Positions 23,877 to 48,379 of a stretch of 51,221 nucleotides of DNA are shown piece after piece (the first letter of the stretch is position 1; each line of letters begins with the position of its first letter). The notes under the pieces were generated by a model. That model worked only from the letters and a program-made list of their open reading frames with translations. It had not been told where the DNA came from and did no database searches. The translations under genes were made by a program, and so were the position numbers. Origin of the DNA: a virus; the IMG/VR virus record IMGVR_UViG_3300025141_011978, positions 1 through 51,221 of that record; one strand, written 5' to 3'.

Positions 23877-23921
23877 TTTTCCGTACTATATGGAAATTTC
23901 CGTATTTTCCGTACTATGTGG
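23877..23921 (-). repeat. direct repeat between tRNA and tmRNA
   Basis: TTTCCGTACTATATGG and TTTCCGTACTATGTGG (plus-strand reading, one mismatch) lie at about 23877-23892 and 23906-23921. The second copy covers the tmRNA 3' end. A partial third copy, TTTCCGTATT, lies between them. Confidence 0.6.
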
Positions 23922-24235
23922 AGATGGGGGGAGTCGAACCCCCGTCTTGACAGCAATGCCATAAAGTCATTCACAAGTTTAGTTGGTTTCTATTCCTACC
24001 AACAAAGTCAACTTTTCTTAATTCATTCTTTTAGCATCGCGATTAAGTGTTGTTATCCCTACGATCGGTCTTCCGATTTCGTCACCACTTTATCCCCTAT
24101 CAGAAGTCAGGGAGTGATGGTAGCCACGTCTATGCGTATGCTACGTTGTAGTTTGTATAATTGCCGATTAAACAATTGTACTAGTTTACTTGCACTCTAT
24201 GTCAAAAATCTACCAATCGAAACCATGGCATCCCC
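23917..24235 (-). ncRNA. ssrA: transfer-messenger RNA (tmRNA)
   Basis: Both ends are diagnostic: 5' GGGGATGCCATGGTTTCGA and 3' GGGGGTTCGACTCCC then CATCTCC, pairing as a 7-bp acceptor with one G-T pair. A tag reading frame at 24130-24165 gives GNYTNYNVAYA then TAG, with TAATC just before the Gly resume codon. One-piece form, about 317 nt; no encoded CCA. tmRNA with SmpB rescues stalled ribosomes and tags nascent peptides. No smpB is seen in the window, so it would use the host protein. Confidence 0.92.
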
Positions 24236-32353: not shown

Positions 32354-32920
32354 CTATTTTCCGAAGCAAACATACATTAAGTCTGACAATCTGTCAATAG
32401 TAATATATTTTTTCTGACTTTTTGTATTCCAAGTCTGACGATAACAGATAGGAACACCATTGTTAATAGATTGTTTTTTAAATCTACTGAGCTTCCTTGG
32501 GGAATCATCTACCAACACATCTACATCAACTGACCATTTCTTATGAGTGTAATGTATTTCATCAAAAACAAATCCCCATCTCTGTAACCATTGGGTTGTG
32601 AGGTCTCTACAATTTTCTCTTTGAGCGGAAACTAAAATAAGTTCGTGTCCGTGATTCTTTGCCCACTCTTTTAGAACTGGCCAATCTGTTAATGAGGTTT
32701 CAATAACATTAGCTTCAGGACCAAATAGTTCCTCAAAGTATTCATCAAAAACATATTTTTCAGTTTCCCCATCAGTCCAAAATGGAAGCCACTCTTCCCA
32801 GTCCCAACTAGTAGGGATACCAATCTTATCAGCGTGTTCTGGGTAAACTTCTTTTATTTTATTTATAAGGTCAGGAATAAAATCTCTTAATACTCCATCG
32901 CAATCTATTCCTATTCTCAT
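32354..32920 (-). CDS. HAD-superfamily nucleotidase (5'(3')-deoxyribonucleotidase-like)
   Basis: 188 residues, ATG preceded by AAAGG. HAD motif I is RIGIDCDGVLRDF (D6, D8), motif II ELILVSAQ, and motif III plus the acidic pair is KKWSVDVDVLVDDSPRKL. The cap and length fit the NT5C/deoxyribonucleotidase type that dephosphorylates nucleoside monophosphates, but phosphatase substrate cannot be read from sequence. It lies immediately downstream of the structured RNA at 32945. Confidence 0.85.
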   Translation of the reverse strand: MRIGIDCDGVLRDFIPDLINKIKEVYPEHADKIGIPTSWDWEEWLPFWTDGETEKYVFDEYFEELFGPEANVIETSLTDWPVLKEWAKNHGHELILVSAQRENCRDLTTQWLQRWGFVFDEIHYTHKKWSVDVDVLVDDSPRKLSRFKKQSINNGVPICYRQTWNTKSQKKYITIDRLSDLMYVCFGK

Positions 32921-32944
32921 TTGTAACCTTTATTTAATTGTGAG

Positions 32945-33026
32945 GAGAGTGCCCGGAGGGACTGGTGGTTGAGCAGTTAATCTAGTCCGAAGACTCCAGA
33001 CAACCCCAAGTATGCGGGCGACTCTC
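32945..33026 (-). ncRNA. unassigned structured RNA between the vWA and HAD genes
   Basis: Minus strand: GAGAGT-C-GCCC at the 5' end pairs with GGGC-ACTCTC at the 3' end (10 bp with one bulge). Inside lie a cUUCGg tetraloop hairpin (AGTC-TTCG-GACT, 32984-32995) and complementary blocks GGTTG/CAACC and CTGG/CCAG that cross, hinting at a pseudoknot or a switch. It is more GC-rich than its surroundings. It is not a tRNA: no T-loop or anticodon arm fits. It could be a riboswitch or leader of the HAD gene. Confidence 0.6.
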
Positions 33027-33030
33027 TATT

Positions 33031-35208: not shown

Positions 35209-35251
35209 AAATTTTCCTTTTCTATTATTTATCTCTTTTATCATCTATGTA

Positions 35252-35335
35252 AATATACGGCGAATATCTAATTAAAGTCAAGCACTTTCGTAAATTAAAT
35301 TGTAACAGTATGTAACAATTAAAGTATTACTTTAA
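35252..35335 (-). promoter_or_regulatory. regulated promoter module of the vWA gene (copy A)
   Basis: Coding strand, 5' to 3': palindrome TTAAAGTAATACTTTAA (35319-35335), direct repeat TGTTACA x2 with 10-bp period (35301-35317), -35 TTGACT (35276-35281), 18 bp ending in CGCCG, -10 TATATT (35252-35257). The same layout recurs at 48000-48085. The leader to the ATG is about 40 nt. Confidence 0.7.
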
Positions 35336-35341
35336 GTATTT

Positions 35342-35503
35342 TTAAGATATTATTTCCAAATCATAATAAGGATCAATTATTAATGCACCTGTTTTATCAT
35401 CTCTCCAAGTTACATAATCATTATTAATGGATGTGACCACACCCGTACATTGATACTTCGGTCAGGTACTATTTATATCTCTAACTGTATCTCCAATTTG
35501 AAT
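35342..35503 (-). pseudogene. small gene interrupted by an in-frame TGA (or read through)
   Basis: A ribosome-binding site AAGGAGG follows the big Cys-rich gene, but no ATG is in frame; an ATT would be the start. The frame reads IQIGDTVRDINST, then TGA (35462-35464), then PKYQCTGVVTSINNDYVTWR and on to a TAA at 35342. Protein-like sequence continues in the same frame on both sides of the TGA, and it resembles a short SH3/KOW-like domain. TGA-C is a leaky stop context. Either a decayed gene, a sequencing error, or readthrough. Confidence 0.55.
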
Positions 35504-35515
35504 TTGTCCTCCTTT

Positions 35516-38500
35516 TTACATTTTTGGGATTATTCCACCTTCTTGCATGGTCGAGTTACAACTTTGTGTCATTATACCCCATAAACAATAAGCTGAAAGA
35601 AGATGTTCATCCCATTGAATGATTGTTGTGATACCTTCAATGGTTTCAGTTTGATCTACCTGAAAACAAGTTTGTATACCATCACAATCAGTTTCCGTGT
35701 CACAAGGGCCCGCTTCACATGCCTCAGCATAGTGGTTTGCACAACATGCATCACACTCATTTTCTTCACCACCACATGTTCCACATATATCATATTTTCC
35801 TTCTTGTGGTACATCCTGGATGGTAGGTACCATATAACATTCCTCATCACAACCTACAAATCCATATTCGAAACATTCTGCGGGCTCAGTTGGACAATTT
35901 GATACATCACAAACCACGGAGTCATCCCAACATATATATTCAGCACCTGGTCCACCACATACACCACAGTCATCTAATACTGCACAACCAAAACAATCAT
36001 CATTACAATCTCTGAGAGTTGAGGATGTGTCAAACTCCCATAGGCCACATAGACGACAATCGTCTATATTATTATTTCCTCCACATTCTCCTAAACAATC
36101 TTCAACCCAACAGTCACCATCGGCATAAGTTTCCCCTGAAGTTACAAGGTAGTTACAAGCTATTGATTCTGTACAACAAGTTGAATTATCACCATCACAT
36201 ACTCCACATTCATCTTTTATCACACAAAGTAATGCATTACATAAATTTTGATTTTGTGGTGAACAATCACCATCACCAGATCCAGAAATGTCCGGACAGA
36301 CTATATAAGGTTCACAATTATTAGTACCACACGCACTAAGACCACATTCCGTACAAGTATGATAAGTACCATCACCAGCACATGTAGCTAATTCATTATA
36401 ATTGTCACTACCGATGTCACACGCATCATTACCAGCTGGAAGACATTCATCATCACAATCACATATTCCATCATTATCAGTATCAATACATTTTCCTTCG
36501 GGTTGACATTGGGGGATATTACAAGCATCCATCTGGTAAGTGCATTGAAATTCTAGATCACCTTCAATATTGGCACAATACTCTTCACCTAAAATTGTAC
36601 AATAATCACCAGTTTCTGTACCAATTGCACAAGTTACTGGTCCTTCTTCATCACAACCACAACCTTGATCAGTTGCTGTAGAACCGCAAACATTATCACA
36701 ACCAGATGGTCCAGCCTCACCACAACCACATCCAAGTTCTTCATCCTCGTCACAACAACCATTAACTAACCCAGTATCAATACAAGCGCAATCACACCAT
36801 TCTACTCCAGCTTCATCTGTACTACAAGTCTCTGCGTCAATATTACCAAAACAATCACCACAATCATCCATATCTGAATTAGGTATATGTTCAGTATTAC
36901 CTTCAGAACAAACATCACAGTCATCTAATACAGCTTCACCATTACAAACACCATTACAATCTACTTCAAGTGATTGACTTCTACATTCATAACTTGCATT
37001 GTCCATTGTACAACAATCACCATTACAATCTACTATATTGGTATCCTCTAAATATCCATCTACATATTCACAATCTGCACATTCACCGTAATTACACGCA
37101 GCTATAACATCACATATTGTAGCTGATCCACCACATTCCCCTAAACAATCTAATACACCACATCCAAGTCCATCACAACCGGTTGGAGTTCCACAATCAA
37201 AGTCATCTAGTTCTCCACAAGTAGCTGGTGGATATTCACAATCATATCCACAACCACCATTATCGCAATTAGTATCTGGGGAAGTTCCTCCACCACCGCA
37301 ATTATTTTTATAATTTATAGTCTCACCACCACAGACACCATCACAATCCCAAGAATGTGCAGCACATTCACAAAATCCAGAAACATTACAATCAGGTAAA
37401 TGGTCGTCTGTACCATCTGATGCTGGATATAACTCACTACAATTACCAGTACCACAATAATCTATAGTCTCATCACACTGATCAGTTGCTCCACCACATT
37501 CTGGATCACCAACAGCTGCACAATCCCAAAGGGCTACAGCTTCATTGTCACCACAAACTCCACATTCATCTTCTACTGATAAACCACCACATATTCCTGC
37601 ACAGTCTACACCATCATCACTACTACAATAACAAGAATTATCGATTGGATTACAATTAGGAGTTGGTTCAGAACAATTAGGATTATTATCACCACTACAA
37701 TTTACATCTTCCATACATTCACCACCGGCGTCAACGCCTGAAGCAGTACATCCTTCTCCTAGGCAACCACCTGCATCGCTATTATCGAGGAAATGACAAG
37801 TAAATACTGGTTCCTCACCACCCACACATGTATAATATCCGTCAAAGTAATAAACATCATCTTCACAATAAGAATCACAATCTGGTTGATTACAACCACA
37901 ATTTTGATTATTTGGATCTGCAACACAATCACCACAGTCATCAACACTTCCATAACCATCGAGACATGAATAGAAGGTATTATAGGTTTCACCTGATGGT
38001 AAAGTACTACAACATGATGCTTCACCAGGACCGCCACAATGTCCAGCTTCTGACCAAGTGAAGTTTGATATGTCATTACCACCACATACACCACATTGAT
38101 CTATCACATCATCACCACCACAAATACCAGCACAGTCAGGTTCCTCATATGAGCAGCATTCAGCGTTCAACGAACAATATGTACAATCACTTATATAACT
38201 TTCACCACAACCACAACCATCTGGATCTGTATCATTACAACACCCACTAAAATCCCCACCTGAATCTGGTAATGGGCAATCACCAGTTGAGCAATATCCT
38301 CCATTACAAGTACATTCAGCAGATGAGCTTGCATATCCATAAGTTCCACAACAATCAGAATTACTACCTTCACATGAACCACAAAAATTGGTGGATGTAC
38401 ATCCAGAGACACTTGATGTATCACAAGTATCAGCAGTTCCACACATTCCATGATTAGAACAAGGATTATAATTTTCTATTGAATCACAACCAGCTTCACC

Positions 38501-39565
38501 AAAACAACCATAAGCAGTTCCACACATTCCATGATTAGAACAAGAATTATAATTTTCTATTGAATCACAACCACCATCACCATCAGCACCACTAAAACAG
38601 TCAGTACTCGTTCCACCACAATTTTCACAAGAAACTGATGGAGCTGAACAATCACTAGAACCACAAACTGTACCACCACAATAATTAGTTTCTTCGTCTG
38701 AACAAGCATAATCTGGAGCTGAACAATCACTAGAACCACAAACTGTACCACCACAATAATTAGTTTCTTCTTCGTCTGAACAAACATAATCTGGAGCTGA
38801 ACAACCACCACCCTCACAATCAGTTGGTTCACCACATTCACCACAATCAGCTGGTGTATCACATTCAGTATCGAAAGCTACACAACCACCACCACAACCA
38901 GCATCACAAGTGAGGATAAAAGCATTACCACCACATTCTCCGGCACAATCTGTATTATTAGTTTCACAGTCACATTCACCGAAGAAATCCCCATCGACAT
39001 CATAATCGTTATCAACCCAATTATCTTCAACAATGTCTGGACAAAATACCTGAGAATCCGTTGGACATCCGAACCCATCGCCATCGTTATCAGAGTAATA
39101 GGTAGTCAAATAAAGACAACATTCATTTCCACCAGGACCATCACCATCTTCATTACAGTCTGTATTACAACCATCTGTACAAGTATTACACGCACTATCA
39201 TCAGTACAACCATATACTGGGATGACATAATTAAAACTTACTTGTATAACTTCTGATAAGCCCCATGGCAAAGCCGCGAATTGTGGAGATACCCAATCAC
39301 CAGTACTCGTTACTACACCAGTTATTGTTTCACCTGGAAATTCAGCTGGTGTTAATTCGATTAAAAAATCATATCCAACTGGATCAGAATCTACCTCTAA
39401 TAGTATATTAATTAATGTAGCAGTCCCGTCGCCATTATCCGTATAACTTATACCACCATTTTCAGGATAATTAATTGTTGCTCCTTGATAAGTAAGGGAA
39501 ATTGAATCTTCAGGAGTAACCGAATGGTTAAATGAATATGTTAAACTTAAATTTAAAAGTGCCAT
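35516..39565 (-). CDS. giant Cys-rich repeat protein (surface/adhesin-like)
   Basis: 1349 residues from the ATG at 39565, which overlaps the previous stop (TAATG). After an N-terminal beta domain of about 120 residues (SLTYSFNHSVTPEDSISLTY), the rest is dominated by Cys/Gly/Asp repeats such as DCAGICGGDDVIDQCGVCGG and DECGVCDGDNSTCC, plus calcium-binding-type DNDGDGFGCP and DTDNDGICDCDDE. Such repeats are typical of large secreted proteins of Marinimicrobia and related FCB bacteria. No signal peptide. Probably a virion appendage folding outside the cell. Confidence 0.85.
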   Translation of the reverse strand: MALLNLSLTYSFNHSVTPEDSISLTYQGATINYPENGGISYTDNGDGTATLINILLEVDSDPVGYDFLIELTPAEFPGETITGVVTSTGDWVSPQFAALPWGLSEVIQVSFNYVIPVYGCTDDSACNTCTDGCNTDCNEDGDGPGGNECCLYLTTYYSDNDGDGFGCPTDSQVFCPDIVEDNWVDNDYDVDGDFFGECDCETNNTDCAGECGGNAFILTCDAGCGGGCVAFDTECDTPADCGECGEPTDCEGGGCSAPDYVCSDEEETNYCGGTVCGSSDCSAPDYACSDEETNYCGGTVCGSSDCSAPSVSCENCGGTSTDCFSGADGDGGCDSIENYNSCSNHGMCGTAYGCFGEAGCDSIENYNPCSNHGMCGTADTCDTSSVSGCTSTNFCGSCEGSNSDCCGTYGYASSSAECTCNGGYCSTGDCPLPDSGGDFSGCCNDTDPDGCGCGESYISDCTYCSLNAECCSYEEPDCAGICGGDDVIDQCGVCGGNDISNFTWSEAGHCGGPGEASCCSTLPSGETYNTFYSCLDGYGSVDDCGDCVADPNNQNCGCNQPDCDSYCEDDVYYFDGYYTCVGGEEPVFTCHFLDNSDAGGCLGEGCTASGVDAGGECMEDVNCSGDNNPNCSEPTPNCNPIDNSCYCSSDDGVDCAGICGGLSVEDECGVCGDNEAVALWDCAAVGDPECGGATDQCDETIDYCGTGNCSELYPASDGTDDHLPDCNVSGFCECAAHSWDCDGVCGGETINYKNNCGGGGTSPDTNCDNGGCGYDCEYPPATCGELDDFDCGTPTGCDGLGCGVLDCLGECGGSATICDVIAACNYGECADCEYVDGYLEDTNIVDCNGDCCTMDNASYECRSQSLEVDCNGVCNGEAVLDDCDVCSEGNTEHIPNSDMDDCGDCFGNIDAETCSTDEAGVEWCDCACIDTGLVNGCCDEDEELGCGCGEAGPSGCDNVCGSTATDQGCGCDEEGPVTCAIGTETGDYCTILGEEYCANIEGDLEFQCTYQMDACNIPQCQPEGKCIDTDNDGICDCDDECLPAGNDACDIGSDNYNELATCAGDGTYHTCTECGLSACGTNNCEPYIVCPDISGSGDGDCSPQNQNLCNALLCVIKDECGVCDGDNSTCCTESIACNYLVTSGETYADGDCWVEDCLGECGGNNNIDDCRLCGLWEFDTSSTLRDCNDDCFGCAVLDDCGVCGGPGAEYICWDDSVVCDVSNCPTEPAECFEYGFVGCDEECYMVPTIQDVPQEGKYDICGTCGGEENECDACCANHYAEACEAGPCDTETDCDGIQTCFQVDQTETIEGITTIIQWDEHLLSAYCLWGIMTQSCNSTMQEGGIIPKM

Positions 39566-40269
39566 TATGTTCCCCCATTCCAAGTTAATGTCTTATCACT
39601 ACCCATACTAGAAATACCTACTATCATACCTTTAACTATAGATGTTATATCACCCGATGCATTAAACCAGCTTCCACCCACCCTCATAGCATAACCAACC
39701 ATTTGTGAGGACAGCATTGTAATAATATGAGACCCATCATCAATTTCCCCACCAATTGATTGATCTAATATATCAGTAAAGCTTGTACCATCATGAAATT
39801 CATCAGCATATGGATAAGAAACAAATCCCCAAGCAGCTGCTTGTGTCTGTACAGTACCATCCCAACCACCAACAACAGTAAACGAAGGATAAGTTACAGA
39901 AGGACATGTACTTGGATCCATACATACATCACTACCAGAACAAATTCCATCACATTCAGTACAATTATTATCACAACAACTTCCCTCACTATCACAACAA
40001 ACACCACAATCAGCAGGACATGTAATTGGATCTATATAATTCTCTGGTAAACATGTCTCACCACCTGGACAAATCCCATCACATTGAGTACAATCACTAT
40101 CACAACAACCGTCAGCAATATCACAACATACACCGGTATAATCACGACCACCGGATGTACGTGTATCGTAATTTGGTCTTTCCTTTTGTGGAAGAATATC
40201 ATTCATTAAACTCTGCAATTCTTCAACAGACATATTCTGTAATTCTTTATCTGAATGCTTTTTAGCCAT
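39565..40269 (-). CDS. Cys-rich protein with short helical N-terminus
   Basis: 234 residues, ATG preceded by GGAG. The N-terminus MAKKHSDKELQNMSVEELQS is a helical motif shared with the next gene upstream. A Cys-rich block follows with two near-copies: CCDSDCTQCDGICPGGETC and CCDNNCTECDGICSGSDVC. The C-terminal half is a beta domain (SFTVVGGWDGTVQTQAAAWG). It overlaps both neighbours. Probably part of the same surface structure as the giant protein. Confidence 0.78.
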   Translation of the reverse strand: MAKKHSDKELQNMSVEELQSLMNDILPQKERPNYDTRTSGGRDYTGVCCDIADGCCDSDCTQCDGICPGGETCLPENYIDPITCPADCGVCCDSEGSCCDNNCTECDGICSGSDVCMDPSTCPSVTYPSFTVVGGWDGTVQTQAAAWGFVSYPYADEFHDGTSFTDILDQSIGGEIDDGSHIITMLSSQMVGYAMRVGGSWFNASGDITSIVKGMIVGISSMGSDKTLTWNGGT

Positions 40270-41098
40270 TATTCTCCAATCTTTTTATTTCATCTATAAG
40301 TTGTTGTTTGGAAAGTTTTGTTGGAACAGGTGTTGTTCTTCCACCCTTTTTAGATGAAGTATAATCACAACCATAACCAAAACCATCAACACAAGTTCCA
40401 CAAACATTATAATATAAACAACTTCCATCATCTTCCGTTGCGATATCATCATAGTTACATGCGGTTTCATCCATACATCCAGAAACATATTCAGTTGGAC
40501 AGACAAGGGGTGTTGAATCACCATGAATATGATTAATAATAACTAATAAATCAAGAACATTTAATGCACCATCACCGTTTACATCACCACATGGATGATA
40601 TCCCGAACCATCACCCAATATTATATTAATTAATATAACTATATCAAGAACATCTATGGCACCATCACCATTTGGATCACCACATTGACCTTCCGGACAA
40701 TGGTCTGTATTACCTGGCTCATTATTATGGGTGTACCCACCTTCATGAAATTTTCTTTTAATATTAATACAGGGTTCATTATTACTTAAATAACCATTTA
40801 GTCTATCTAACATTTGTTCCAAAGACAATCCACTTAAACTCTGTAACATCTGTCTTTCTTCTGAGCAATTTCCTTGTGGTATTGGTTTGGGTTTTATTTC
40901 AGGGGGTCTTGGTTTTGATATTAAATCTTTTTTTAGATTTTGTAGTTGTTCAATAGACATAGAATGGAGTTGACTGTCGAGAAGTTTTGGTTGTGATGGA
41001 ACAGGTGTTGTTCCTTTACTCTGTTCTAACTCATCTTTTATTCTTTGTAGTTCTTTAACAGATTTATTTCGTAACTCATTATCTAAATATTTAGCCAT
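40262..41098 (-). CDS. dockerin-bearing protein with helical N-terminal repeats
   Basis: 278 residues. Two copies of a short helix (LRNKSVKELQRIKDEL; LHSMSIEQLQNLKKDL) open the protein. A type I dockerin-like pair follows at about residues 137-196: GDPNGDGAIDVLDIVILINI and GDVNGDGALNVLDLLVIINH, each a calcium-loop/helix. A Cys motif (CNYDDIATEDDGSC) and a C-terminal helix (SKQQLIDEIKRLENNG) complete it. Dockerins bind cohesins; no cohesin is evident in the window. Confidence 0.82.
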   Translation of the reverse strand: MAKYLDNELRNKSVKELQRIKDELEQSKGTTPVPSQPKLLDSQLHSMSIEQLQNLKKDLISKPRPPEIKPKPIPQGNCSEERQMLQSLSGLSLEQMLDRLNGYLSNNEPCINIKRKFHEGGYTHNNEPGNTDHCPEGQCGDPNGDGAIDVLDIVILINIILGDGSGYHPCGDVNGDGALNVLDLLVIINHIHGDSTPLVCPTEYVSGCMDETACNYDDIATEDDGSCLYYNVCGTCVDGFGYGCDYTSSKKGGRTTPVPTKLSKQQLIDEIKRLENNG

Positions 41099-41102
41099 TG
41101 TT

Positions 41103-41558
41103 CTATTTCTGTAACTTTTTTATATCGTTAATAAGTTGTCGTTTCAAGTTTTCTTCTCTACTTGTTGCAACTGGTTTTGTAAATCCACCTCCTTGGAGTT
41201 TTCCACCTTTTCTTCCCAATGGTGGGCCTGTAGGAGCTCCTACAGAAGTTGCCATGTGTGAGTGACTTGCGGTTGATTTCATTGGCATCTGACTTTCCAA
41301 TGATGAAACTTTACTTTCCAATGTCAAAACTTTTTGTATTAATTCATTTACTTCATCTATTATTTTATTTATCTTACCAGTAGGGGCGTGTGTTTCTATC
41401 AAAAGTTCTCTTAGATTATTATAATTCATTATCTTTTCTTTTGTTGTATCTTTTTCAAGTGGTTTCATTGGATTAGGTGTGAATACTTTGGTCTTTTCAT
41501 ATAACCAATTCCATATATTATTAAATGGACCACCTGTTGGTAGTTTATTTATTGCCAT
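41103..41558 (-). CDS. helical protein at the head of the Cys/dockerin module
   Basis: 151 residues. A coiled coil (ELIQKVLTLESKVSSLESQM) lies in the middle, followed by a Gly/Pro-rich linker. The C-terminus NLKRQLINDIKKLQK matches the C-terminal helix of the dockerin protein. The first gene after the motif at 41624. May be an attachment or oligomerisation adaptor for the Cys-rich proteins. Confidence 0.7.
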   Translation of the reverse strand: MAINKLPTGGPFNNIWNWLYEKTKVFTPNPMKPLEKDTTKEKIMNYNNLRELLIETHAPTGKINKIIDEVNELIQKVLTLESKVSSLESQMPMKSTASHSHMATSVGAPTGPPLGRKGGKLQGGGFTKPVATSREENLKRQLINDIKKLQK

Positions 41559-41623
41559 AATTTTTTCCTATACTAATTGAAAATCTTTCATCCCCCTAAC
41601 GATGTTAGATATAATTACTCATA

Positions 41624-41632
41624 TATAAATAT
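41624..41632 (-). promoter_or_regulatory. putative late promoter motif for the Cys/dockerin module
   Basis: Coding strand CTATATTTATATATGAG. Motif and flanks match the baseplate-operon site at 17418 closely, which suggests that this module is expressed with virion genes. Confidence 0.55.
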
Positions 41633-41655
41633 AGCATTTGTAGAAATAGAGAGAA

Positions 41656-41681
41656 ATAAAAAACCTCACAATAGTGAGGTT
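41656..41681 (-). terminator. rho-independent terminator
   Basis: Minus strand AACCTCAC-TATT-GTGAGGTT followed by TTTT, 9 nt after the stop of the gene at 41691. It separates that gene from the Cys/dockerin module. Confidence 0.88.
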
Positions 41682-41690
41682 TAATATTAG

Positions 41691-42260
41691 TTATTTTTTG
41701 GGTGTTTGACTGTTACCCGGTGGTTTCTTTAAACCAGCCTTTTTAAGAGATTCAGCTAAAGATTTAACTTCGTCTCCTTTCTTACGACTTCTGTATTCAT
41801 CGTAGTATAACTCAAACTTTTCTTTTGGTGTAAGTTCGTGATCTATTCGCAACTCTTGTAAGAACTTCTTTAACTCATATTGTTTTGATTTGTCTCTATA
41901 GTTAGACTTCTTATATTCTTTATCCCAACCATCTATAAATGAATCAAATTGTTTTATAAGTTTCTTCCATTCTGCTTCAGACATATCTTCGGGGAAGTCC
42001 ATACGAATATCTTTACGGAATGATTCTATATCATCCCATCTATCTTTTAAGTCATCCGTAGATAGTCTGTCTTTCTCATCTGGATCTTCTAAATCAAAAC
42101 CATCCAAACCATTCATTAGTTCACTTATGAGATAGTTACAGAAATTGATTCTATGTAAATCATCGGCTGTATTAGTTTTAGCAGCCTCGAATTGAATTTC
42201 ATCAATAAATTCAATTAGATTTTTTACTATATCATCTGGTATGATTTTATACTTCATCAT
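41691..42260 (-). CDS. charged helical hypothetical protein
   Basis: 189 residues, ATG preceded by CGGAG; a second ATG follows directly. Rich in Asp, Glu and Lys and almost wholly helical (EWKKLIKQFDSFIDGWDKEY). No domain recognised. A motif at 42296 precedes it and a terminator follows, so it may be a single-gene transcript. Confidence 0.72.
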   Translation of the reverse strand: MMKYKIIPDDIVKNLIEFIDEIQFEAAKTNTADDLHRINFCNYLISELMNGLDGFDLEDPDEKDRLSTDDLKDRWDDIESFRKDIRMDFPEDMSEAEWKKLIKQFDSFIDGWDKEYKKSNYRDKSKQYELKKFLQELRIDHELTPKEKFELYYDEYRSRKKGDEVKSLAESLKKAGLKKPPGNSQTPKK

Positions 42261-42295
42261 TACTCCGTTTCTCCCACAGTTTGTTATGTCTTTAC

Positions 42296-42304
42296 TATAA
42301 ATAT
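42296..42304 (-). promoter_or_regulatory. putative late promoter motif
   Basis: Coding strand GATATATTTATAGTAAAG, about 36 nt before the ATG at 42260. The region also holds the partial dyad ATCGTTTA/TTAACGAT. Confidence 0.45.
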
Positions 42305-42308
42305 ATCG

Positions 42309-42509
42309 TTAATTGAATAAACGATATAAAATAATTAATTGTAATATAATAGTTGATATAGCTAACATTGTTCTAGTAAACTCCATTATGTGGTTATATC
42401 GATTTAAGAATCTTTCAACTTTATTTCTTTTCTTTGGATATGGTGTTAAAACTTCCAAACCATTTTCATTACAACAATCCTTATCGTGTTTCCACTTTAG
42501 TTCTTTCAT
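42309..42509 (-). CDS. small membrane protein
   Basis: 66 residues, ATG preceded by GGAG. A basic N-terminal half with paired Cys (KDCCNENG) and a C-terminal membrane helix (TMLAISTIILQLIILYRLF). Overlaps the coiled-coil gene by 29 nt. Confidence 0.65.
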   Translation of the reverse strand: MKELKWKHDKDCCNENGLEVLTPYPKKRNKVERFLNRYNHIMEFTRTMLAISTIILQLIILYRLFN

Positions 42510-42765
42510 CTACTATTTCTCCTATCCGCTTATTTCTATTACAGAAATATAATTCTGTTTCTAACTCTTTTACCTTATCTTGTAATTCAGTTATCTCTAA
42601 TGCAAACCCATTTCGTTCAATTCGTATCTTATCCCAATACTTATCTTTAACCTCATTACATTCTCTGGCATACTTTAGTTGTCCTTCTAATCGAGTTACT
42701 TGTGATGTTAATATAGTTATATTTCTCTCGAACTGAAGTTTGCCATTACCGTGATAATCACTCAT
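42481..42765 (-). CDS. coiled-coil protein
   Basis: 94 residues. Heptad-rich from about residue 15 (TSQVTRLEGQLKYAREC; LEITELQDKVKELETEL). Overlaps its upstream neighbour by 8 nt. No family recognised. Confidence 0.68.
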   Translation of the reverse strand: MSDYHGNGKLQFERNITILTSQVTRLEGQLKYARECNEVKDKYWDKIRIERNGFALEITELQDKVKELETELYFCNRNKRIGEIVDERTKVETR

Positions 42766-43075
42766 TTATTTTCTCCAATACTCTATCCATTTTTCTTATC
42801 TTAATTACTTCCTCTATAATTTCTACTTCGCTATCATCAATTTCGGGGGGATATAAATATCCTATCTCCAAATCTCTATCTAACTTATCTATATACGATT
42901 GCCAATCAACTGTAGATTCCACCACATCTATTTCAATGTCGTGTGTATGTAATGGCCAGTATATTATCTGTAGTATATATGGGTCATATAAATATAATCC
43001 TATACTTACATACCATAATGTAAATAAGGAACTGAACCATTTAAATAAGAATATCTTATCGTGTTCCTTTAGCAT
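42758..43075 (-). CDS. membrane-anchored hypothetical protein
   Basis: 105 residues from the ATG at 43075, chosen because GGAG lies 9 nt upstream and the longer reading overlaps its neighbour heavily. Hydrophobic N-terminal part (FLFKWFSSLFTLWYVSIGLY) and an acidic C-terminal tail (EIDDSEVEIIEEVIKI). Confidence 0.62.
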   Translation of the reverse strand: MLKEHDKIFLFKWFSSLFTLWYVSIGLYLYDPYILQIIYWPLHTHDIEIDVVESTVDWQSYIDKLDRDLEIGYLYPPEIDDSEVEIIEEVIKIRKMDRVLEKINE

Positions 43076-43241
43076 AATACTTTGCTCCAACCAATCCCAA
43101 TATTGTAAGTACATCTTCAGCCACATCTTCTACCTCTTTAAGACTATTCAATGTGTTACCTTCATTGTGTTTCTTTATTAATGTTTCTACAACTTTATAC
43201 TTTGTGTATCTGTGTATCTCTTCCAACTGATGTTCAGTCAT
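43056..43241 (-). CDS. small hypothetical protein
   Basis: 61 residues; the ATG overlaps the upstream stop (ATGA). Helical, charged N-terminal half (EIHRYTKYKVVETLIKKH), mildly hydrophobic end (VLTILGLVGAKYY). Unrecognised. Confidence 0.62.
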   Translation of the reverse strand: MTEHQLEEIHRYTKYKVVETLIKKHNEGNTLNSLKEVEDVAEDVLTILGLVGAKYYAKGTR

Positions 43242-43402
43242 TTTGTTTTACTCCTATAAAAGACCCACACTCCAATGTTAAGTGCACCTATTGCAAAATT
43301 GAATAGTGAGTCGTTGTTTACATAAAAATATAAGTTCTGTAATCCAAAACCTAAATTAATCCATAGTACATATTTTAACCATTGTTTCTTCTCTTGTGTC
43401 AT
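43238..43402 (-). CDS. 54-residue membrane protein (found by hand translation)
   Basis: Translation MTQEKKQWLKYVLWINLGF then LQNLYFYVNNDSLFNFAIGA and LNIGVWVFYRSKTK gives two hydrophobic helices. The stop overlaps the next ATG as ATGA, which supports it as a real coupled gene. It fills the gap between the Smr-domain gene and the 61-residue protein. Confidence 0.68.
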   Translation of the reverse strand: MTQEKKQWLKYVLWINLGFGLQNLYFYVNNDSLFNFAIGALNIGVWVFYRSKTK

Positions 43403-43410
43403 TTCTCTTA

Positions 43411-43626
43411 TCACTCCGTTCTCCCCGCGAGTATTGTGTATTCTCCCCAGTTAGCCCATCGTTCAAGTGCTATCTTATGTTTATGACAAAATGTTTCTAA
43501 CTTACCTCTCATGTAAGTAGAATTGCCTGTTATTACTTTAAGGGGTGGTTCATTTAGAAGAATGAAATTCTCTAATAACCTTTCAACCTCTTCATGTCTT
43601 ACTCCGTGTAAGTCTAACTCTTTCAT
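43411..43626 (-). CDS. Smr-domain protein
   Basis: 71 residues, a stand-alone Smr domain: LDLHGVRHEEVERLLENF contains the LDxHG signature and LKVITGNSTY the second motif (usually TGxG). Smr domains are nucleic-acid endonucleases or bind branched or collided-ribosome substrates. The ATATTTATA motif sits so close to the ATG that the mRNA may have almost no leader. Confidence 0.8.
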   Translation of the reverse strand: MKELDLHGVRHEEVERLLENFILLNEPPLKVITGNSTYMRGKLETFCHKHKIALERWANWGEYTILAGRTE

Positions 43627-43627
43627 A

Positions 43628-43636
43628 TATAAATAT
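43628..43636 (-). promoter_or_regulatory. putative late promoter motif abutting the Smr gene
   Basis: Coding strand GATATATTTATATATGAAAG, in which the final ATG is the Smr start. A start of transcription 5-8 nt after the core would give a leaderless or nearly leaderless mRNA. Confidence 0.4.
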
Positions 43637-43638
43637 AT

Positions 43639-44883
43639 CTATACTCCTAATATAAATGTTATTAATGTCACAATATCTAAAATGTTTAATACACCATCTT
43701 CGTTTACATCGGCTTCTGTAATATATGAACCATCAAGTATATAATTTATAACCATAACAATATCTATAACATCTACAGAACCATCTCCGTTGATGTCACC
43801 ATATAGTGTAAGGTAATCCAACCCATACTTCTGTGCTCTAAATGTATTACTACTACCATAGTGTTCCCATACAATCTCTTTGTCGTATGTAACTTCAAAC
43901 ATATATCCATCTGAAGATACTGTAACAAATGTATTCCCATTTGGTAATCTAAATGCTCCACTTTGTTTGGGTGCATAGAAGTCATCTCTAAATGTCCATA
44001 TAGGTTCAGTAGGTCCCCAAGCTTCTCCATCCTCTATATAGTAATCGTCTGGTGGTCTAAACTCTATAACTTCTGATGTATCATTTTCCATTCCTATTCT
44101 ACTATTGTTATTGAATAGAATTATATTCTCCCCACCTGGATATCCTACAGGTATCTCATTAACTCCGTGTTGAGCCTCTAACATCTTATCGTTATCATCT
44201 CCTCTTCCGTAGTTCTCTGGGTTTCCCCATCTGTATAATATATCTCCATCACCCCAATTATAAGCTATAACATATATCTCACACCAATTGCGTGAGGATA
44301 GTAATATCTCATCAAACTCATTTAGACTAACAGCATTAAAGTGATTCCAATCGTTTGTATGATAATCGGCATCTTCATAGAATGTATATGGATTATCTAA
44401 TTCTCCCATATGTTCTGATACTTTCCATACCCATACCAAATTAGCTCCATACATACCATCAGGTTCTATCTCTAATACAACATCAGGCATAAACCCATCT
44501 ATGTCTTCTTTAGCAATAGCAAGTATAGTTCCGTTTGGTGTAGGTTGTATGTCGTGATGTAACTGATATTCCCAATCACATACCCAATCCCACAATATAG
44601 TTCCATCCCAATCGTAGTGTATTATTCTACCACCAGAAGCTGATGTAGGATCTATTATAGGTTCTCTTTGTTTACAAGGATATATAAGTGTACTATCGGG
44701 TTGTAAGTAAGCCATCGATGCAACCTGACAATCTGCATACCATTCATTAATAACATTCTCATCGTTGTCAATAAGATATGTAGTATAGTCAGGATCACCA
44801 GTATATAGTGTATACCCCTCAAACACATTAGGTGTGAGAAAACCAAAAAGTATAATGATATGTGTTAAAAATTTTATTTTCAT
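43639..44883 (-). CDS. secreted arylsulfotransferase-like beta-propeller with C-terminal dockerin
   Basis: 414 residues. A signal peptide (FLTHIIILFGFLTPNVFEG) precedes a propeller resembling the arylsulfotransferase (ASST) family: WEYQLHHDIQPTPNGTILAI, DWNHFNAVSLNEFDEILLSS, EAQHGVNEIP and GAFRLPNGNTFVTVSSDG; the repeated central His residues fit the family. The last about 55 residues are a dockerin pair, GDINGDGSVDVIDIVMVINY and ADVNEDGVLNILDIVTLITF. It would act in the periplasm or outside. Its ATG is 9 nt after the tRNA-Pro 3' end with no ribosome-binding site. Confidence 0.8.
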   Translation of the reverse strand: MKIKFLTHIIILFGFLTPNVFEGYTLYTGDPDYTTYLIDNDENVINEWYADCQVASMAYLQPDSTLIYPCKQREPIIDPTSASGGRIIHYDWDGTILWDWVCDWEYQLHHDIQPTPNGTILAIAKEDIDGFMPDVVLEIEPDGMYGANLVWVWKVSEHMGELDNPYTFYEDADYHTNDWNHFNAVSLNEFDEILLSSRNWCEIYVIAYNWGDGDILYRWGNPENYGRGDDNDKMLEAQHGVNEIPVGYPGGENIILFNNNSRIGMENDTSEVIEFRPPDDYYIEDGEAWGPTEPIWTFRDDFYAPKQSGAFRLPNGNTFVTVSSDGYMFEVTYDKEIVWEHYGSSNTFRAQKYGLDYLTLYGDINGDGSVDVIDIVMVINYILDGSYITEADVNEDGVLNILDIVTLITFILGV

Positions 44884-44892
44884 ATAGCCGTG

Positions 44893-44968
44893 TCGAGATG
44901 GGAGGATTTGAACCTACGACCCCTTGCTCCCAAAGCAAGTGCGTTAAACCGGACTACGCTACATCTCG
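44893..44968 (-). tRNA. tRNA-Pro (TGG)
   Basis: Minus strand: acceptor CGAGATG/CATCTCG, anticodon arm CTTGC-TTTGGGA-GCAAG with anticodon TGG, T-loop TTCAAAT; one T-stem mismatch; discriminator A, CCA not encoded. Its 5' 15 nt overlap the stop end of the homing endonuclease gene. Confidence 0.9.
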
Positions 44969-45469
44969 TTTTTTATTAGATATAAATCTACCTTTATTAT
45001 CTTTTAATATAACAGTATTTCTTTTACCTGTAAATCCCCTTGGATTATCTTTATGGGATTTCTTCATACGTTCAGAATGTTGTTTCCTTCTTTCTTCAGA
45101 CCAATTTCGCATAAAATGATTATTACCTTTCAATGCTTCAGATATCTTCTTTTTAGTTTCCTTACTAGGAGGTCCATGTTTAAATGCTCTATCCTTTAAC
45201 GCTTTAGATATCTTCTCTTTATGTTCTTTGGATTTAGATTTACCCTTATTATTTTTTCCACCTATACGAGAGGTTTCTATAAATAACTCTGGATTTACCA
45301 TTTGCTCACTAAGTGATAACCAAGCAACCTTGTCCTCAAGAAATCCCCATTCTTTCCAATACTCTTTATGCATTTGTGCATGTTTAGATACTGTAACAAA
45401 AATGGTTTTATTAGTTCTTACTCTTTTCCCATTATGGCATTCTATAATATGATGTCTATGTTTAATCAT
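44954..45469 (-). CDS. HNH homing endonuclease with NUMOD3 motifs, nested between tRNAs
   Basis: 171 residues. The N-terminal HNH core (MIKHRHHIIECHNG, KTIFVTVSKHAQMHKEYW, KVAWLSLSEQM) is the phage homing type. Two NUMOD3 DNA-binding motifs follow: SKEHKEKISKALK and PSKETKKKISEALKGNN. The frame starts 8 nt after tRNA-Arg and its stop TAG lies inside the 5' part of tRNA-Pro, so the element sits precisely in the tRNA cluster. It probably spreads by cutting tRNA-cluster alleles lacking it. Confidence 0.85.
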   Translation of the reverse strand: MIKHRHHIIECHNGKRVRTNKTIFVTVSKHAQMHKEYWKEWGFLEDKVAWLSLSEQMVNPELFIETSRIGGKNNKGKSKSKEHKEKISKALKDRAFKHGPPSKETKKKISEALKGNNHFMRNWSEERRKQHSERMKKSHKDNPRGFTGKRNTVILKDNKGRFISNKKRDVA

Positions 45470-45476
45470 ATTGTTG

Positions 45477-45548
45477 TACCCTTAACAGGACTCGAACCTG
45501 TACGAAGGGAGTAGAAATCCCTAATGCTATCCATTACATTATAAGGGC
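45477..45548 (-). tRNA. tRNA-Arg (TCT)
   Basis: Minus strand: acceptor GCCCTTA/TAAGGGT, anticodon arm AGGGA-TTTCTAC-TCCCT with anticodon TCT, T arm ACAGG-TTCGAGT-CCTGT; CCA not encoded. AGA, its codon, is common in this AT-rich genome. Confidence 0.92.
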
Positions 45549-45555
45549 AAAATTG

Positions 45556-45628
45556 AGTACAGAGAGAGAATCGAACTCTCGAAATATGGATTTGCAGTCC
45601 ATCCTATTAACCATTCTAGCACCTGTAC
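45556..45628 (-). tRNA. tRNA-Cys (GCA)
   Basis: Minus strand: acceptor GTACAGG/TCTGTAC, anticodon arm ATGGA-CTGCAAA-TCCAT with anticodon GCA, T arm GAGAG-TTCGATT-CTCTC, discriminator T as expected for Cys. A phage-supplied Cys tRNA fits the phage's extremely Cys-rich 1349-residue protein. Confidence 0.92.
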
Positions 45629-45630
45629 AT

Positions 45631-45789
45631 TTAATCATCAAAATCAATCCAAGTAACTATCTCACCTAATATAACAACAAACGCTCCAACAGGTGCTGTA
45701 ATATATACCCACATTAACGAACCTATTACTCTTAATAGTAACCCATAGGTATGTTGGTCTTTCTTTGATAGTATTTTAGAAAACCACAT
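45631..45789 (-). CDS. 52-residue membrane protein (found by hand translation)
   Basis: Translation MWFSKILSKKDQHTYGLLLR then VIGSLMWVYITAPVGAFVVI and LGEIVTWIDFDD, with one long hydrophobic segment. Its ATG overlaps the upstream 51-codon gene by 14 nt with GGATGG before it; its stop is 2 nt before tRNA-Cys. Confidence 0.62.
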   Translation of the reverse strand: MWFSKILSKKDQHTYGLLLRVIGSLMWVYITAPVGAFVVILGEIVTWIDFDD

Positions 45790-45931
45790 TAGTCCATCCT
45801 AATACAGCCATTAACCATCCTATATTCTTATAATCAGCAAAATTCCAATATCCACTTCTGTATAATCCTAATCCATAATTAATCCAACATAACGCCAAAG
45901 TTATACATTCTATTGTATATACCCATTCCAT
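45776..45931 (-). CDS. 51-residue membrane protein (found by hand translation)
   Basis: ATG preceded by GGAG at 10 nt. Translation MEWVYTIECITLALCWINYG then LGLYRSGYWNFADYKNIGWL and MAVLGWTNVVF, with hydrophobic N- and C-terminal segments around a polar middle. Unrecognised. Confidence 0.62.
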   Translation of the reverse strand: MEWVYTIECITLALCWINYGLGLYRSGYWNFADYKNIGWLMAVLGWTNVVF

Positions 45932-45944
45932 CTATTTATTTCTC

Positions 45945-46130
45945 CTATCTTTTAACTCCGTGTAATCCCCTTGTTTTACTATTAGGACTCCTTCGGAGTA
46001 ATTCAACGAAACATCTTTTTGTTAACTCCCTATTAGGGTTATCTCTCAAGTGAGGGGGAACGCTTAAGTCACCTTGGGTTGTTAGCCATAGGTTGACGAG
46101 CTGTTTTCTATTTAAGTCTTTTAAGTTCAT
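45945..46130 (-). CDS. small basic protein, possibly leaderless
   Basis: 61 residues, MNLKDLNRKQLVNLWLTTQ to a basic C-terminus (RRSPNSKTRGLHGVKR). No family recognised. The -10 of promoter 46137 ends only 7 nt before the ATG, so the transcript would start at or near the start codon. Confidence 0.6.
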   Translation of the reverse strand: MNLKDLNRKQLVNLWLTTQGDLSVPPHLRDNPNRELTKRCFVELLRRSPNSKTRGLHGVKR

Positions 46131-46136
46131 AGTTAT

Positions 46137-46166
46137 AATTTAATACATTATAGGTATATAAGTCAA
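46137..46166 (-). promoter_or_regulatory. host-type promoter of the 61-residue gene
   Basis: Coding strand TTGACT, 18 bp, TAAATT. Shares the GCTTGACTTATA block with the tmRNA and CobS-like promoters. Confidence 0.6.
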
Positions 46167-46225
46167 GCTATATTAATTGTCTATAGCGAAAAAATTACCC
46201 TCAAAATGTATGTCGGTCAGACGCC

Positions 46226-46242
46226 TTAAAGTAATACTTTAA
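46226..46242 (-). promoter_or_regulatory. TTAAAGTA-type palindrome (third copy)
   Basis: TTAAAGTAATACTTTAA, symmetric about its centre, 60 nt upstream of the -35 at 46161-46166. The same palindrome occurs at 35319 and 48070 but here without the TGTTACA repeats. Likely a protein-binding site. Confidence 0.6.
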
Positions 46243-46266
46243 GTGAAAGTGAAAAACCAAATGAAG

Positions 46267-46299
46267 ATGTGATTTAAATACCCCTTTTATGTCACAAAA
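46267..46299 (-). repeat. 33-bp element, inverted copy at 48347-48379
   Basis: Minus strand starts TTTTGTGACATA and ends ATCACAT. It matches the plus strand of 48347-48379 at 27 of 33 positions. Each copy has TGTGA and TCACA arms. Confidence 0.6.
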
Positions 46300-46337
46300 A
46301 TATGGGGGCAGGTAGAAAGGAATAAAAACCCACCCCC
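46296..46337 (-). terminator. terminator after the CobS-like gene
   Basis: Minus strand GGGGG with CCCCC plus an inner GGT/ACC across a 2x2 mismatch, then ATATTTTTG. About 10 nt past the stop. Weaker than the other terminators. Confidence 0.6.
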
Positions 46338-46346
46338 TATGAGAAA

Positions 46347-47552
46347 TTAAGCCGCTGTCGCTTCTTCTACTTCTTCTTCATTAAAAAGGTCATCCGAAGA
46401 ACCGTCATCACAGAATTTTTGTACAATTTGTTTTACGAATGTTCTCTCACTATCTACTCCACCAGCGTCATCATATTGAGGATAGATACTAACCTCAGCC
46501 GCTTCTACTAATGAGAACCCATCATATAGTAACCCAGACAATTCAACCGTTGTTCTCGTACTAATACCACTACCTACTCTTGCGGTATCTGATTTAGATT
46601 CAACACGAGTTAGGTTGGCGATTTTTGCTACATTACTTAATACTACTGAATCAACATGAGGGAACATATAAGTCAAAAGTTCATTTTCCTCTGATTCACT
46701 TAATACATCCATCTCTACTATAGTGAACCTATCCATTAGAGCCTTATCCATAACTCTAGTAGAAGTATATTCATTACCGATATTTGCTGTCGCAATAAAT
46801 GTAACTCCATCGGCGACCTTAATAGTAGCCTGTCCATCTTGTTCATCTAACCGAAGATATCTTTGACCATAATCTAAAACAGTCATTAAGATATTCCACG
46901 CATCTGGATGTGCTCTTGAAAGTTCATCTAATAGTATAACCGCGTTTGGTGTCTGAATAGCCTTAACAAATACTGACTCACTAAAATAGGTTCCAGAGTT
47001 TTTCTCGAAATGGACATTACCAATAAGAGTAGCTCTCGGATCTTGAGTCGCACCCAAGTTAAAGTAGAAGTCAGGTCTATCTAAACTATTAACTAACGCC
47101 TTCGCCGCCATAGTCTTACCACAACCAGCGGGTCCAGTCATCATAATATTTTTACCCCTAACGCCAGAACGTATAAGGTATTTCCACTTCAATTCATTCA
47201 TCATCAACCCTTTAGGTTTTAACGAGTATGAGTTGTGTATAAACGCTAGTACTTCAGCGTGATCGGTAGGTACTTCAATATCAGAAGAAACCTCGTTAGA
47301 AGACGAATTTAGAACCGAAGAATTTTCTAGTTCATTCATCACCTTATCAGTAACTCTCCTCCACGCAAATCCACTCTTACCATTAGTAGAAGGGAAACGC
47401 CCTATTAAGTAGTCACCATTATACGCATTCTTTCGACAACCTGAAGTGATCTCGGAAGTGTACTTAGTACCATCAGAAGACCACGCGTTATATCGATTGC
47501 CTGATTTCTCTATCTTACAAACGACATCTGGTAGTAATATTTGTTTAGCCAT
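46347..47552 (-). CDS. cobS: CobS-like/MoxR-family AAA+ ATPase
   Basis: 401 residues, ATG preceded by AAAGGAG. Walker A GPAGCGKT at 140-147, Walker B VILLDELSRAH at about 205-215, sensor region FIATANIGNEYTSTR and Arg-finger area KALMDRFTIVEMD. The segment GATQDPRATLIGNV is typical of CobS-type proteins, which are frequent in T4-like marine phages. The N-terminal about 95 residues are a separate small domain. The CobT-like vWA gene at 33031-35208 is the natural partner. Cobalt chelation is not established in phages; a remodelling role is as likely. Confidence 0.88.
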   Translation of the reverse strand: MAKQILLPDVVCKIEKSGNRYNAWSSDGTKYTSEITSGCRKNAYNGDYLIGRFPSTNGKSGFAWRRVTDKVMNELENSSVLNSSSNEVSSDIEVPTDHAEVLAFIHNSYSLKPKGLMMNELKWKYLIRSGVRGKNIMMTGPAGCGKTMAAKALVNSLDRPDFYFNLGATQDPRATLIGNVHFEKNSGTYFSESVFVKAIQTPNAVILLDELSRAHPDAWNILMTVLDYGQRYLRLDEQDGQATIKVADGVTFIATANIGNEYTSTRVMDKALMDRFTIVEMDVLSESEENELLTYMFPHVDSVVLSNVAKIANLTRVESKSDTARVGSGISTRTTVELSGLLYDGFSLVEAAEVSIYPQYDDAGGVDSERTFVKQIVQKFCDDGSSDDLFNEEEVEEATAA

Positions 47553-47605
47553 TATTTAAAGCTCCTTTTTGATTATTGTTTAATTTCTTTCTCATCTTAC
47601 TCTAT

Positions 47606-47635
47606 AATATAAGCCTTTTTTACGACATAAGTCAA
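47606..47635 (-). promoter_or_regulatory. host-type promoter of the CobS-like gene
   Basis: Coding strand TTGACT, 18 bp, TATATT, with the conserved GCTTGACTTAT block, about 50 nt before the ATG. Confidence 0.68.
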
Positions 47636-47645
47636 GCTTTATTTT

Positions 47646-47687
47646 AAAAAAAGTGGTGGTTTTTATTTAGACCGTTCTAAAACCACC
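47646..47687 (-). terminator. terminator overlapping the end of the 76-residue gene
   Basis: Minus strand GGTGGTTTT and AAAACCACC with a 15-nt loop, then ACTTTTTTT. The gene's stop codon TAA (47667-47669) lies in the loop, so the last codons double as the stem. Confidence 0.82.
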
Positions 47688-47897
47688 AAAAAGAAACCGC
47701 TGTTTTAGTTTGTGATTAATGTGGTAAACTAACTCGCTATCAAGTAAAACACACAATCTTCTACAGGGGATCTCATCATCTTTGTCTGACCACTTTGGTG
47801 TCATTCCGTCTGCCTTCCGCTTCTTAGGATTTACCACAGGCTTCCCTTGTATTGATATCATTTCAAAAAACTTTATTTCTTGTGGAGTTTCATACAC
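47667..47897 (-). CDS. small basic hypothetical protein
   Basis: 76 residues, ATG after GGAGGG. Basic, with two Cys (CRRLCVLLD); ends KQRFLFGGFRTV within its terminator. It follows promoter module B at 48000 after a leader of about 100 nt and precedes the CobS-like gene. Unrecognised. Confidence 0.62.
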   Translation of the reverse strand: MYETPQEIKFFEMISIQGKPVVNPKKRKADGMTPKWSDKDDEIPCRRLCVLLDSELVYHINHKLKQRFLFGGFRTV

Positions 47898-47999
47898 CCT
47901 CCGGAACTTTTTACGCTAGTCTGTCAATTCAGAACTCCCAACGTGCCCTTCGTAGGGGAAAAATCAATCCATTATTTTATCTCTCTCATCATCTACTTA

Positions 48000-48085
48000 A
48001 ATATACGGCGATTTTACGATATAAGTCAAGCGTTTTATTCAATTAAATTGTAACAAGATGTAACAGTCGTTAAAGTATTACTTTA
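48000..48085 (-). promoter_or_regulatory. regulated promoter module (copy B)
   Basis: Coding strand: palindrome (48070-48085), TGTTACA x2 with 10-bp period (48049-48065), TTTAATT, -35 TTGACT (48024-48029), 18 bp ending CGCCG, -10 TATATT (48000-48005). Same order and nearly the same spacing as at 35252-35335. Downstream similarity continues for about 30 nt (TAGATGATnAnAGAG). Confidence 0.7.
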
Positions 48086-48129
48086 TGTCATAACGCCTGA
48101 CGATAAGTGTGAAAGTGTGAATCCCTCAT

Positions 48130-48159
48130 AATTTACGGCGAATTTGCTATATGATACAA
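48130..48159 (-). promoter_or_regulatory. second, upstream promoter
   Basis: Coding strand TTGTAT, 18 bp ending TTCGCCG, TAAATT. The CGCCG next to the -10 is shared with modules A and B. It would transcribe through module B. Confidence 0.5.
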
Positions 48160-48228
48160 GCTTTATTTATAGAGAAGGATAAGAAAAATATTCTAACTAA
48201 ATGCGTTTAAGTAGTTGATCCAAGAAAT

Positions 48229-48298: not shown

Positions 48299-48346
48299 TT
48301 GCAAACGCGATTAGAAAGGAAAGAAAGAACCGCGTTTTAAAGTTAG

Positions 48347-48379
48347 TTTTGTGACATATTTAGGGTATTTTCATCACAT
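48347..48379 (+). repeat. 33-bp element, inverted copy of 46267-46299
   Basis: Plus strand starts TTTTGTGACATA and ends ATCACAT; 27 of 33 identical with the minus strand of the other copy, 2.05 kb away. Confidence 0.6.

Follow-up and report, generated by a model that had tools for sequence, protein, structure and literature searches.

The stretch analysed here, hereafter the window, is a linear virus record of 51 kb (IMG/VR record IMGVR_UViG_3300025141_011978, 51,221 nucleotides). It comes from an uncultured marine phage that is T4-like, rich in AT and encodes tRNAs and a tmRNA. Two promoter modules lie on the minus strand of the window (Table 1). Each contains, in the same order, a 17-bp palindrome (TTAAAGTAWTACTTTAA, one base changed in module 2) directly upstream of a direct repeat of TGTTACA, then ATTTAATT and a sigma70-type promoter, i.e. 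TTGACA-like and TATAAT-like hexamers 16-18 nt apart. All parts named in a preliminary description of this DNA were found at both sites, and the modules aligned with 80% identity over 90 nt. Exact copies of TGTTACA-N3-TGTTACA were restricted to these two sites within the window, while a first-order Markov model of the window predicted 0.0019. The CGCCG that abuts both -10 boxes had also been listed among the shared parts, but it recurs at 48130-48140, and in this phage group CG is the dinucleotide most often found before TATATT or TATAAT (15 of 43 promoters); we therefore rejected it as a module-specific element. The recurrence falls within a further promoter-like sequence upstream of module 2 (48127-48170, minus strand), which has CGCCG beside its -10 and no repeat.

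Behind module 1 lies a gene which, judged by the sequence of its product, encodes a CobT-like VWA protein, in agreement with its earlier designation as a vWA gene. Residues D548, S550, S552, T625 and D654 of the metal-ion-dependent adhesion site are invariant, and CobT_C similarity was detected in six of eight orthologues (best 9.5e-4), with the window protein itself below the curated cut-off. The top Foldseek match of the predicted VWA structure was the NorQ-NorD VWA complex (E 2.4e-5), itself an AAA+/VWA pair; the AlphaFold model has a low mean confidence (55), so that this match can serve as support only, and a profile search of the protein against PDB sequences gave no match. The first gene behind module 2 is a short open reading frame, followed by a CobS-like AAA+ ATPase with conserved Walker A (GPAGCGKT) and Walker B (LLDE) motifs. 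Co-control of the genes at 47.9-47.5 kb by module 2 had been proposed; this would apply to the 76-residue frame directly behind the module, but the CobS-like gene has its own promoter, from which the repeat is missing. In related phages, a repeat promoter stands directly at the CobS-like gene, and a second one is often present 400-700 nt farther upstream. The CobS-like and CobT-like genes are adjacent in jumbo phage LR756508 and about 13 kb apart in Microcystis phage Mel-JY01, as in the window. By analogy with the MoxR/VWA and CobS/CobT paradigm, their products may work together; for the phage genes, CobS and CobT are names based on sequence likeness, and no role in corrin metallation is implied.

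Table 1. Promoter modules, genes and RNAs discussed in the text (window positions unless a locus of a related phage is named)
Feature	Position	Strand	Remarks
Module 1	35335 to 35230	-	TTAAAGTAATACTTTAA, TGTTACA-TAC-TGTTACA, ATTTAATT, TTGACT, N18 ending CGCCG, TATATT, TACATAGATGATAAAAGAG
Module 1, palindrome TTAAAGTAATACTTTAA	35319..35335	-	17 bp, directly upstream of repeat; putative second operator
Module 1, direct repeat TGTTACA-TAC-TGTTACA	35301..35317	-	about -71 to -55, register B; kept in relatives
Module 1, sigma70-type promoter	35252..35281	-	-35 TTGACT 35281-35276, N18, -10 TATATT 35257-35252
Module 2	48086 to 47980	-	ATAAAGTAATACTTTAA, TGTTACA-TCT-TGTTACA, ATTTAATT, TTGACT, N18 ending CGCCG, TATATT, TAAGTAGATGATGAGAGAG
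Module 2, palindrome ATAAAGTAATACTTTAA	48070..48086	-	upstream of repeat; first base differs from TTAAAGTAATACTTTAA
Module 2, direct repeat TGTTACA-TCT-TGTTACA	48049..48065	-	register B
Module 2, sigma70-type promoter TTGACT-N18-TATATT	48000..48029	-	-35 from 48029
CobT-like VWA-domain gene	33031..35244	-	737 amino acids as listed; start favoured in relatives, ATGAGTTTTAA, gives 725
NT5C-like 5'-nucleotidase gene	32354..32920	-	next in unit behind module 1; Pfam NT5C 2.2e-10
Open reading frame, 76 amino acids	47667..47897	-	GTG start; first gene behind module 2; no family match
CobS-like AAA+ (MoxR/AAA_5) ATPase gene	46347..47552	-	401 amino acids; AAA_5 7.9e-19; phrog_249 4.3e-28
Own promoter of CobS-like gene, TTGACT-N18-TATATT	47606..47635	-	without repeat
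Third palindrome copy	46226..46242	-	about 60 nt upstream of TTGACT (46166)-N18-TAAATT; no repeat there
Structured RNA CATACTT...CAGTCCCTC	32936..33034	-	overlaps end of CobT-like frame, just before NT5C gene; downstream of module 1
Second RNA, examples	L007 5832-5914; L009 5816-5918; L117 10987-11104; others		just upstream of repeat promoters

Close relatives contain more of these sites than the window does. A scan of IMG/VR for the repeat followed by TTTAATT returned 34 stretches, and promoter-like sequence lay downstream of most. Whole records of seven close relatives contained 7, 7, 7, 6, 6, 5 and 5 exact repeats, while the reversed pattern, used as a control, was found in none of the 50 records; in the relatives G006, G021, G015 and G037, for example, 7, 6, 6 and 7 repeats were counted against 0.003-0.008 expected. 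When six genomes were pooled, 35 pairs of TGTTACA were separated by exactly 3 nt and only two pairs by any other gap from 0 to 14. In close relatives, the repeats are mostly confined to one 20-kb region; in G006, whose 168-kb contig is collinear with the window, the seven repeats are all found at 22-41 kb, the counterpart of window positions from about 33 to 51 kb. Gene families recur behind the sites as well, the first gene being most often a CobT-like VWA gene (10 cases), a CobS-like AAA+ gene (8), a small open reading frame (6) or a HAD phosphatase gene (5). Since the repeat, its 10-bp period, its distance to the promoter and the genes behind it are kept in many phages, the lack of conservation that would have spoken against the module did not occur.

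The true scale of the system is thus a regulon and not a duplication, as relatives carry five to seven copies. Recent copying of one module from the other, which the preliminary description had considered, was not borne out: the modules are identical at 84 of 104 positions, no closer than the VWA promoter of the window is to its orthologues (86 of 102 in G048, 84 of 97 in G013). An older duplication is possible, because the leader TAGATGATGAGAGAGA of module 2 is also found in the VWA leader of G003. In the window, two 36-nt inverted arms with 81% complementarity (46267-46302 and 48344-48379) bracket the CobS-like gene together with module 2, and these are possible borders of a moved cassette.

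The repeats are placed with respect to the promoter in two registers. Among 56 sites, perfect -10 hexamers (TATATT or TATAAT) began 32-33 nt (20 sites) or 42-43 nt (19 sites) after the second half-site, and any other offset was represented by at most three sites; the -35 begins 9 or 19 nt downstream of the repeat. With the -10 set at -12 to -7, repeats of register A cover about -61 to -45 and those of register B about -71 to -55, i.e. one helical turn farther out. The registers differ in their -35 boxes: two or more mismatches to TTGACA/T were present in 15 of 20 register-A sites (with TTG retained), compared to 6 of 19 register-B sites. A perfect -35 was found in 9 of the 19 register-B sites, and both window modules belong to this register with a perfect TTGACT. 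The spacer between half-sites is almost always WWY (C at its second position in 4 of 56), ATTTAATT-like sequence follows the repeat, and a third, inverted half-site TGTAACA is present 4 nt upstream of the repeat in 5 of 60 sites. Most sites are located on the coding strand, 60-100 nt ahead of the start codon. Sites of OmpR-family regulators generally consist of direct half-sites 10-11 bp apart upstream of a -35; the period here is 10, and the earlier proposal of a response-regulator-type site agrees with a geometry that is kept, at the level of sequence, across many phages.

Two explanations which dispense with a transcriptional regulator can be weighed against this geometry. An UP element, recognized by the alpha subunit of RNA polymerase, consists of A/T tracts, and ATTTAATT with its AT-rich flanks does lie upstream of the -35; nevertheless, the G and C of both TGTTACA copies are kept, the gap is exactly 3 and other gaps are nearly absent, so that we consider an UP element alone very unlikely. 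Still harder to credit is the idea that the repeats serve replication or partition, as iterons or in another way, and lie near promoters by chance: short direct repeats at one-turn spacing beside palindromes would suit such a role, but most sites precede start codons on the coding strand, have a -10 at fixed offsets and form scattered pairs rather than an array.

In our view, the TGTTACA repeat is probably an activator site for an OmpR-family response regulator of the host. We infer the OmpR-family identity of the binder, its host origin and its activating role. Each module would then combine a phage promoter of the sigma70 type with an activator site upstream of it, TGTTACA-WWY-TGTTACA, on which an OmpR-family dimer of the host would occupy both half-sites on one helix face and recruit host RNA polymerase. 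In register A, the regulator would sit close to the -35 and rescue poor -35 boxes, and in register B, used in the window, it would stand one turn farther out, beside the AT-rich ATTTAATT, and add to a good -35. Two to seven such promoters would couple the CobS-like ATPase, its CobT-like VWA partner and a few small genes to one host signal.

The preliminary description had left it open whether the regulator belongs to the phage or to the host. A host regulator is now favoured, though not proven, because a search of 29 phage records for proteins containing the OmpR-type DNA-binding domain (Trans_reg_C) detected none, for which reason a phage-encoded OmpR-type protein was rejected. A small phage-encoded activator of another fold might still bind the repeats and drive a set of middle genes. 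Middle promoters of phage T4 offer a precedent, since they combine -10 boxes for the host sigma70 with an upstream site for the activator MotA and serve a whole gene set. The phage promoters described here are a similar class in having a sigma70 -10 and a putative upstream activator site; however, the MotA box is single and replaces the -35, while here a tandem repeat stands upstream of the -35 and no phage activator was found. Exact sites, present all-or-none in one clade and mostly in one genome region, are what a phage-owned regulon would look like, and the extended 25-mer site is absent from cellular genomes. On the other hand, no transcription factor was present among the Pfam/PHROG matches listed for 50 small proteins of G006. 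Moreover, the same repeat occurs with ATTTAATT in an unrelated, siphophage-like group of freshwater phages, where the -35 is at offset 19 in 18 of 19 loci; among annotated phages, this group is nearest to an uncultured Caudoviricetes from Manatee Spring and to Methylophilales phage Venkman. The common repeat and spacing fit a shared host factor better than a phage activator, which we judge unlikely. In this second group, locus L017 and 18 similar loci contain TGTTACAATTTGTTACAATTTAATT and TTGACA at the distance found in the window.

Several observations weigh against a host regulator. The extended 25-mer was found in none of 84,980 species genomes, and the perfect TGTTACAWWYTGTTACA is rare, being present in 10 of 242 Cyanobacteriia, 7 of 229 Gammaproteobacteria and 3 of 247 Bacteroidia, where each count includes one genome chosen for having the site. 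None of the cellular TGTTACAWWYTGTTACA sites examined had a clear promoter at the spacing seen in the phages, and thus no matching host regulon was found. Furthermore, the repeat can be missing from close relatives whose CobS-like genes are 74-80% identical. In favour of a regulator site, by contrast, the repeat is all-or-none ahead of CobS-like genes: when 300 nt ahead of 47 such loci were scanned, it was present with no mismatch at seven of them and the remaining loci had at least three mismatches; in L085 and L117 the repeat lies just beyond the scanned 300 nt. A further scan with the CobS-like alignment added no useful new loci.

Site scans of cellular genomes singled out no host group. 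The HLR1 element of cyanobacterial RpaB, KTTACAWW-N2-KTTACAWW, activates when located at -66 to -45 (PMC13421787). It resembles the phage sites in its two GTTACAWW half-sites with a 10-bp period, and its activating zone coincides with register A. Module 1 fits the HLR1 consensus throughout (GTTACATA-CT-GTTACAAT) and module 2 at all but one position, where W is C. It might thus be speculated that the sites are true HLR1 elements through which phages of cyanobacteria read the light or redox state of their host; of the two cultured phages that are closest, one infects Microcystis. However, the window sites, at about -71 to -55 if TATATT is taken as the -10, fall one turn outside this zone, the phage pairs are near-perfect TGTTACA with a fixed ATTTAATT flank, and the site with this flank was present in no scanned cellular genome. 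No sign of a photosynthetic host was seen either: psbA was found in none of 50 phage records and hli-type proteins in none of 43, which makes a cyanobacterial host doubtful. The Microcystis phage itself, Mel-JY01, has no repeat site, a Methylophilales phage is among the nearest annotated relatives of the second group, and the same GTTACA is read by a proteobacterial relative of OmpR, RisA. In Bordetella, GTTACA occurs in 391 of 430 peaks of RisA chromatin immunoprecipitation, and RisA sites resemble those of the phages in having several copies of this consensus (PMC11019879). Taken together, we give an RpaB-read HLR1 element little credence. In the paper collection searched, none joined RpaB, HLR1 and cyanophage.

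Terminase large subunit and tail sheath proteins placed the window about equally near to Flavobacterium phage immuto and Microcystis phage Mel-JY01, both of them distant. Shine-Dalgarno sequences precede 50-64% of open reading frames in the window, G006 and G021 versus 4% in immuto, and given this and the use of TTGACT/TATAAT promoters, a host from Bacteroidota is unlikely. When the motif alone was compared with named phages by blastn, the matches were for the most part weak and unspecific; some were to phages of the Lactococcus 936 group (83-86% over about 40 nt, E 5e-4 to 0.07).

Phage genes under a host OmpR/PhoB-family regulator have been described by experiment, as the PhoBR system of the host controls genes of cyanophages through PhoB (P-SSM2 pstS; S-PM2d, with a gel shift for the latter), and the same source warns against relying on predicted phage Pho boxes unless binding has been tested (PMC10976474), a caution which holds equally for predicted TGTTACA sites. 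The present sites are not Pho boxes, whose repeats read PyTTAAPyPyT/A (PMC10976474) while the half-site here is TGTTACA; they also differ in their many exact copies and in a gene set that includes the AAA+/VWA pair. Such regulators are known to act on single phage genes. We tentatively put forward, as a possibility, that one lineage of large marine phages has a regulon in which up to seven promoters answer to a single two-component regulator of the host and drive a CobS/CobT-like AAA+/VWA machine together with two structured RNAs not described before, and that a second, unrelated lineage reached the same architecture. If true, sensing of the signalling state of the host by way of a whole gene set would be central to these phages, in which the site is retained without a mismatch although the genes diverge. 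The regulon would also make a single regulatory unit of the CobS/CobT-like AAA+/VWA pair, which is common in phages and unexplained. The repeat itself is an exact and easily tested DNA element, to which the adjacent structured RNAs add a further lead.

The palindrome might represent a second, putative operator (TTAAAGTAWTACTTTAA) placed beside some of the repeat promoters. Its third copy, which the preliminary description had located at 46226, is indeed present in the window and has an orthologous conserved site in the relative L183. Several phages keep TTAAAGTAWTACTTTAA (L180-L184; window 35319, 46226 and 48070) ahead of promoters with or without the repeat.

Short structured RNAs near the promoters would probably be coupled to the same host signal as well. 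The one downstream of module 1 is built from a GAGA-stem, CATACTT, a variable hairpin, CAGTCCCTC, a stem and CTCTC. In an alignment of 12 versions, 98% of cells were paired and five adjacent pairs showed compensatory change, while the number of paired cells, the changes on both sides and the covariation score exceeded those of all 500 shuffles and of every slid version. A search of Rfam gave no credible match. Of 36 records, 12 contained this RNA, with a single copy in each; almost all of the 12 also have the repeat (G023 and G024 are without an exact one), and in relatives the RNA is mostly located between a distal promoter and the CobS-like gene. It is preceded in G006 by a match to manA RNA (RF01745, 34.7 bits, E 3e-7, below the gathering score; L162 6561-6770) which lies right behind a repeat promoter; similar sequence was noticed by eye in G003 and G015. 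A second RNA has the core ACAACGGACAAGGCTTNGG...GAGTGGTTGACCA and an 11-bp stem with compensatory changes in 10 of its 11 pairs. It was without a match in Rfam and was not found in the window; its core occurred in 94 viral stretches.

Some further features of the window can be mentioned. A gene at 43639-44883 (minus strand) combines arylsulfotransferase-like and dockerin type I domains, and repeats resembling its dockerin-coding part are found in a neighbouring open reading frame (40517-40688). A full-length Hsp70/DnaK is encoded at 30424-32289 (minus strand; Pfam 1.8e-263), and a tmRNA-like gene (RF00023, 89.9 bits) lies at 23916-24235 (minus strand) with an adjacent tRNA.

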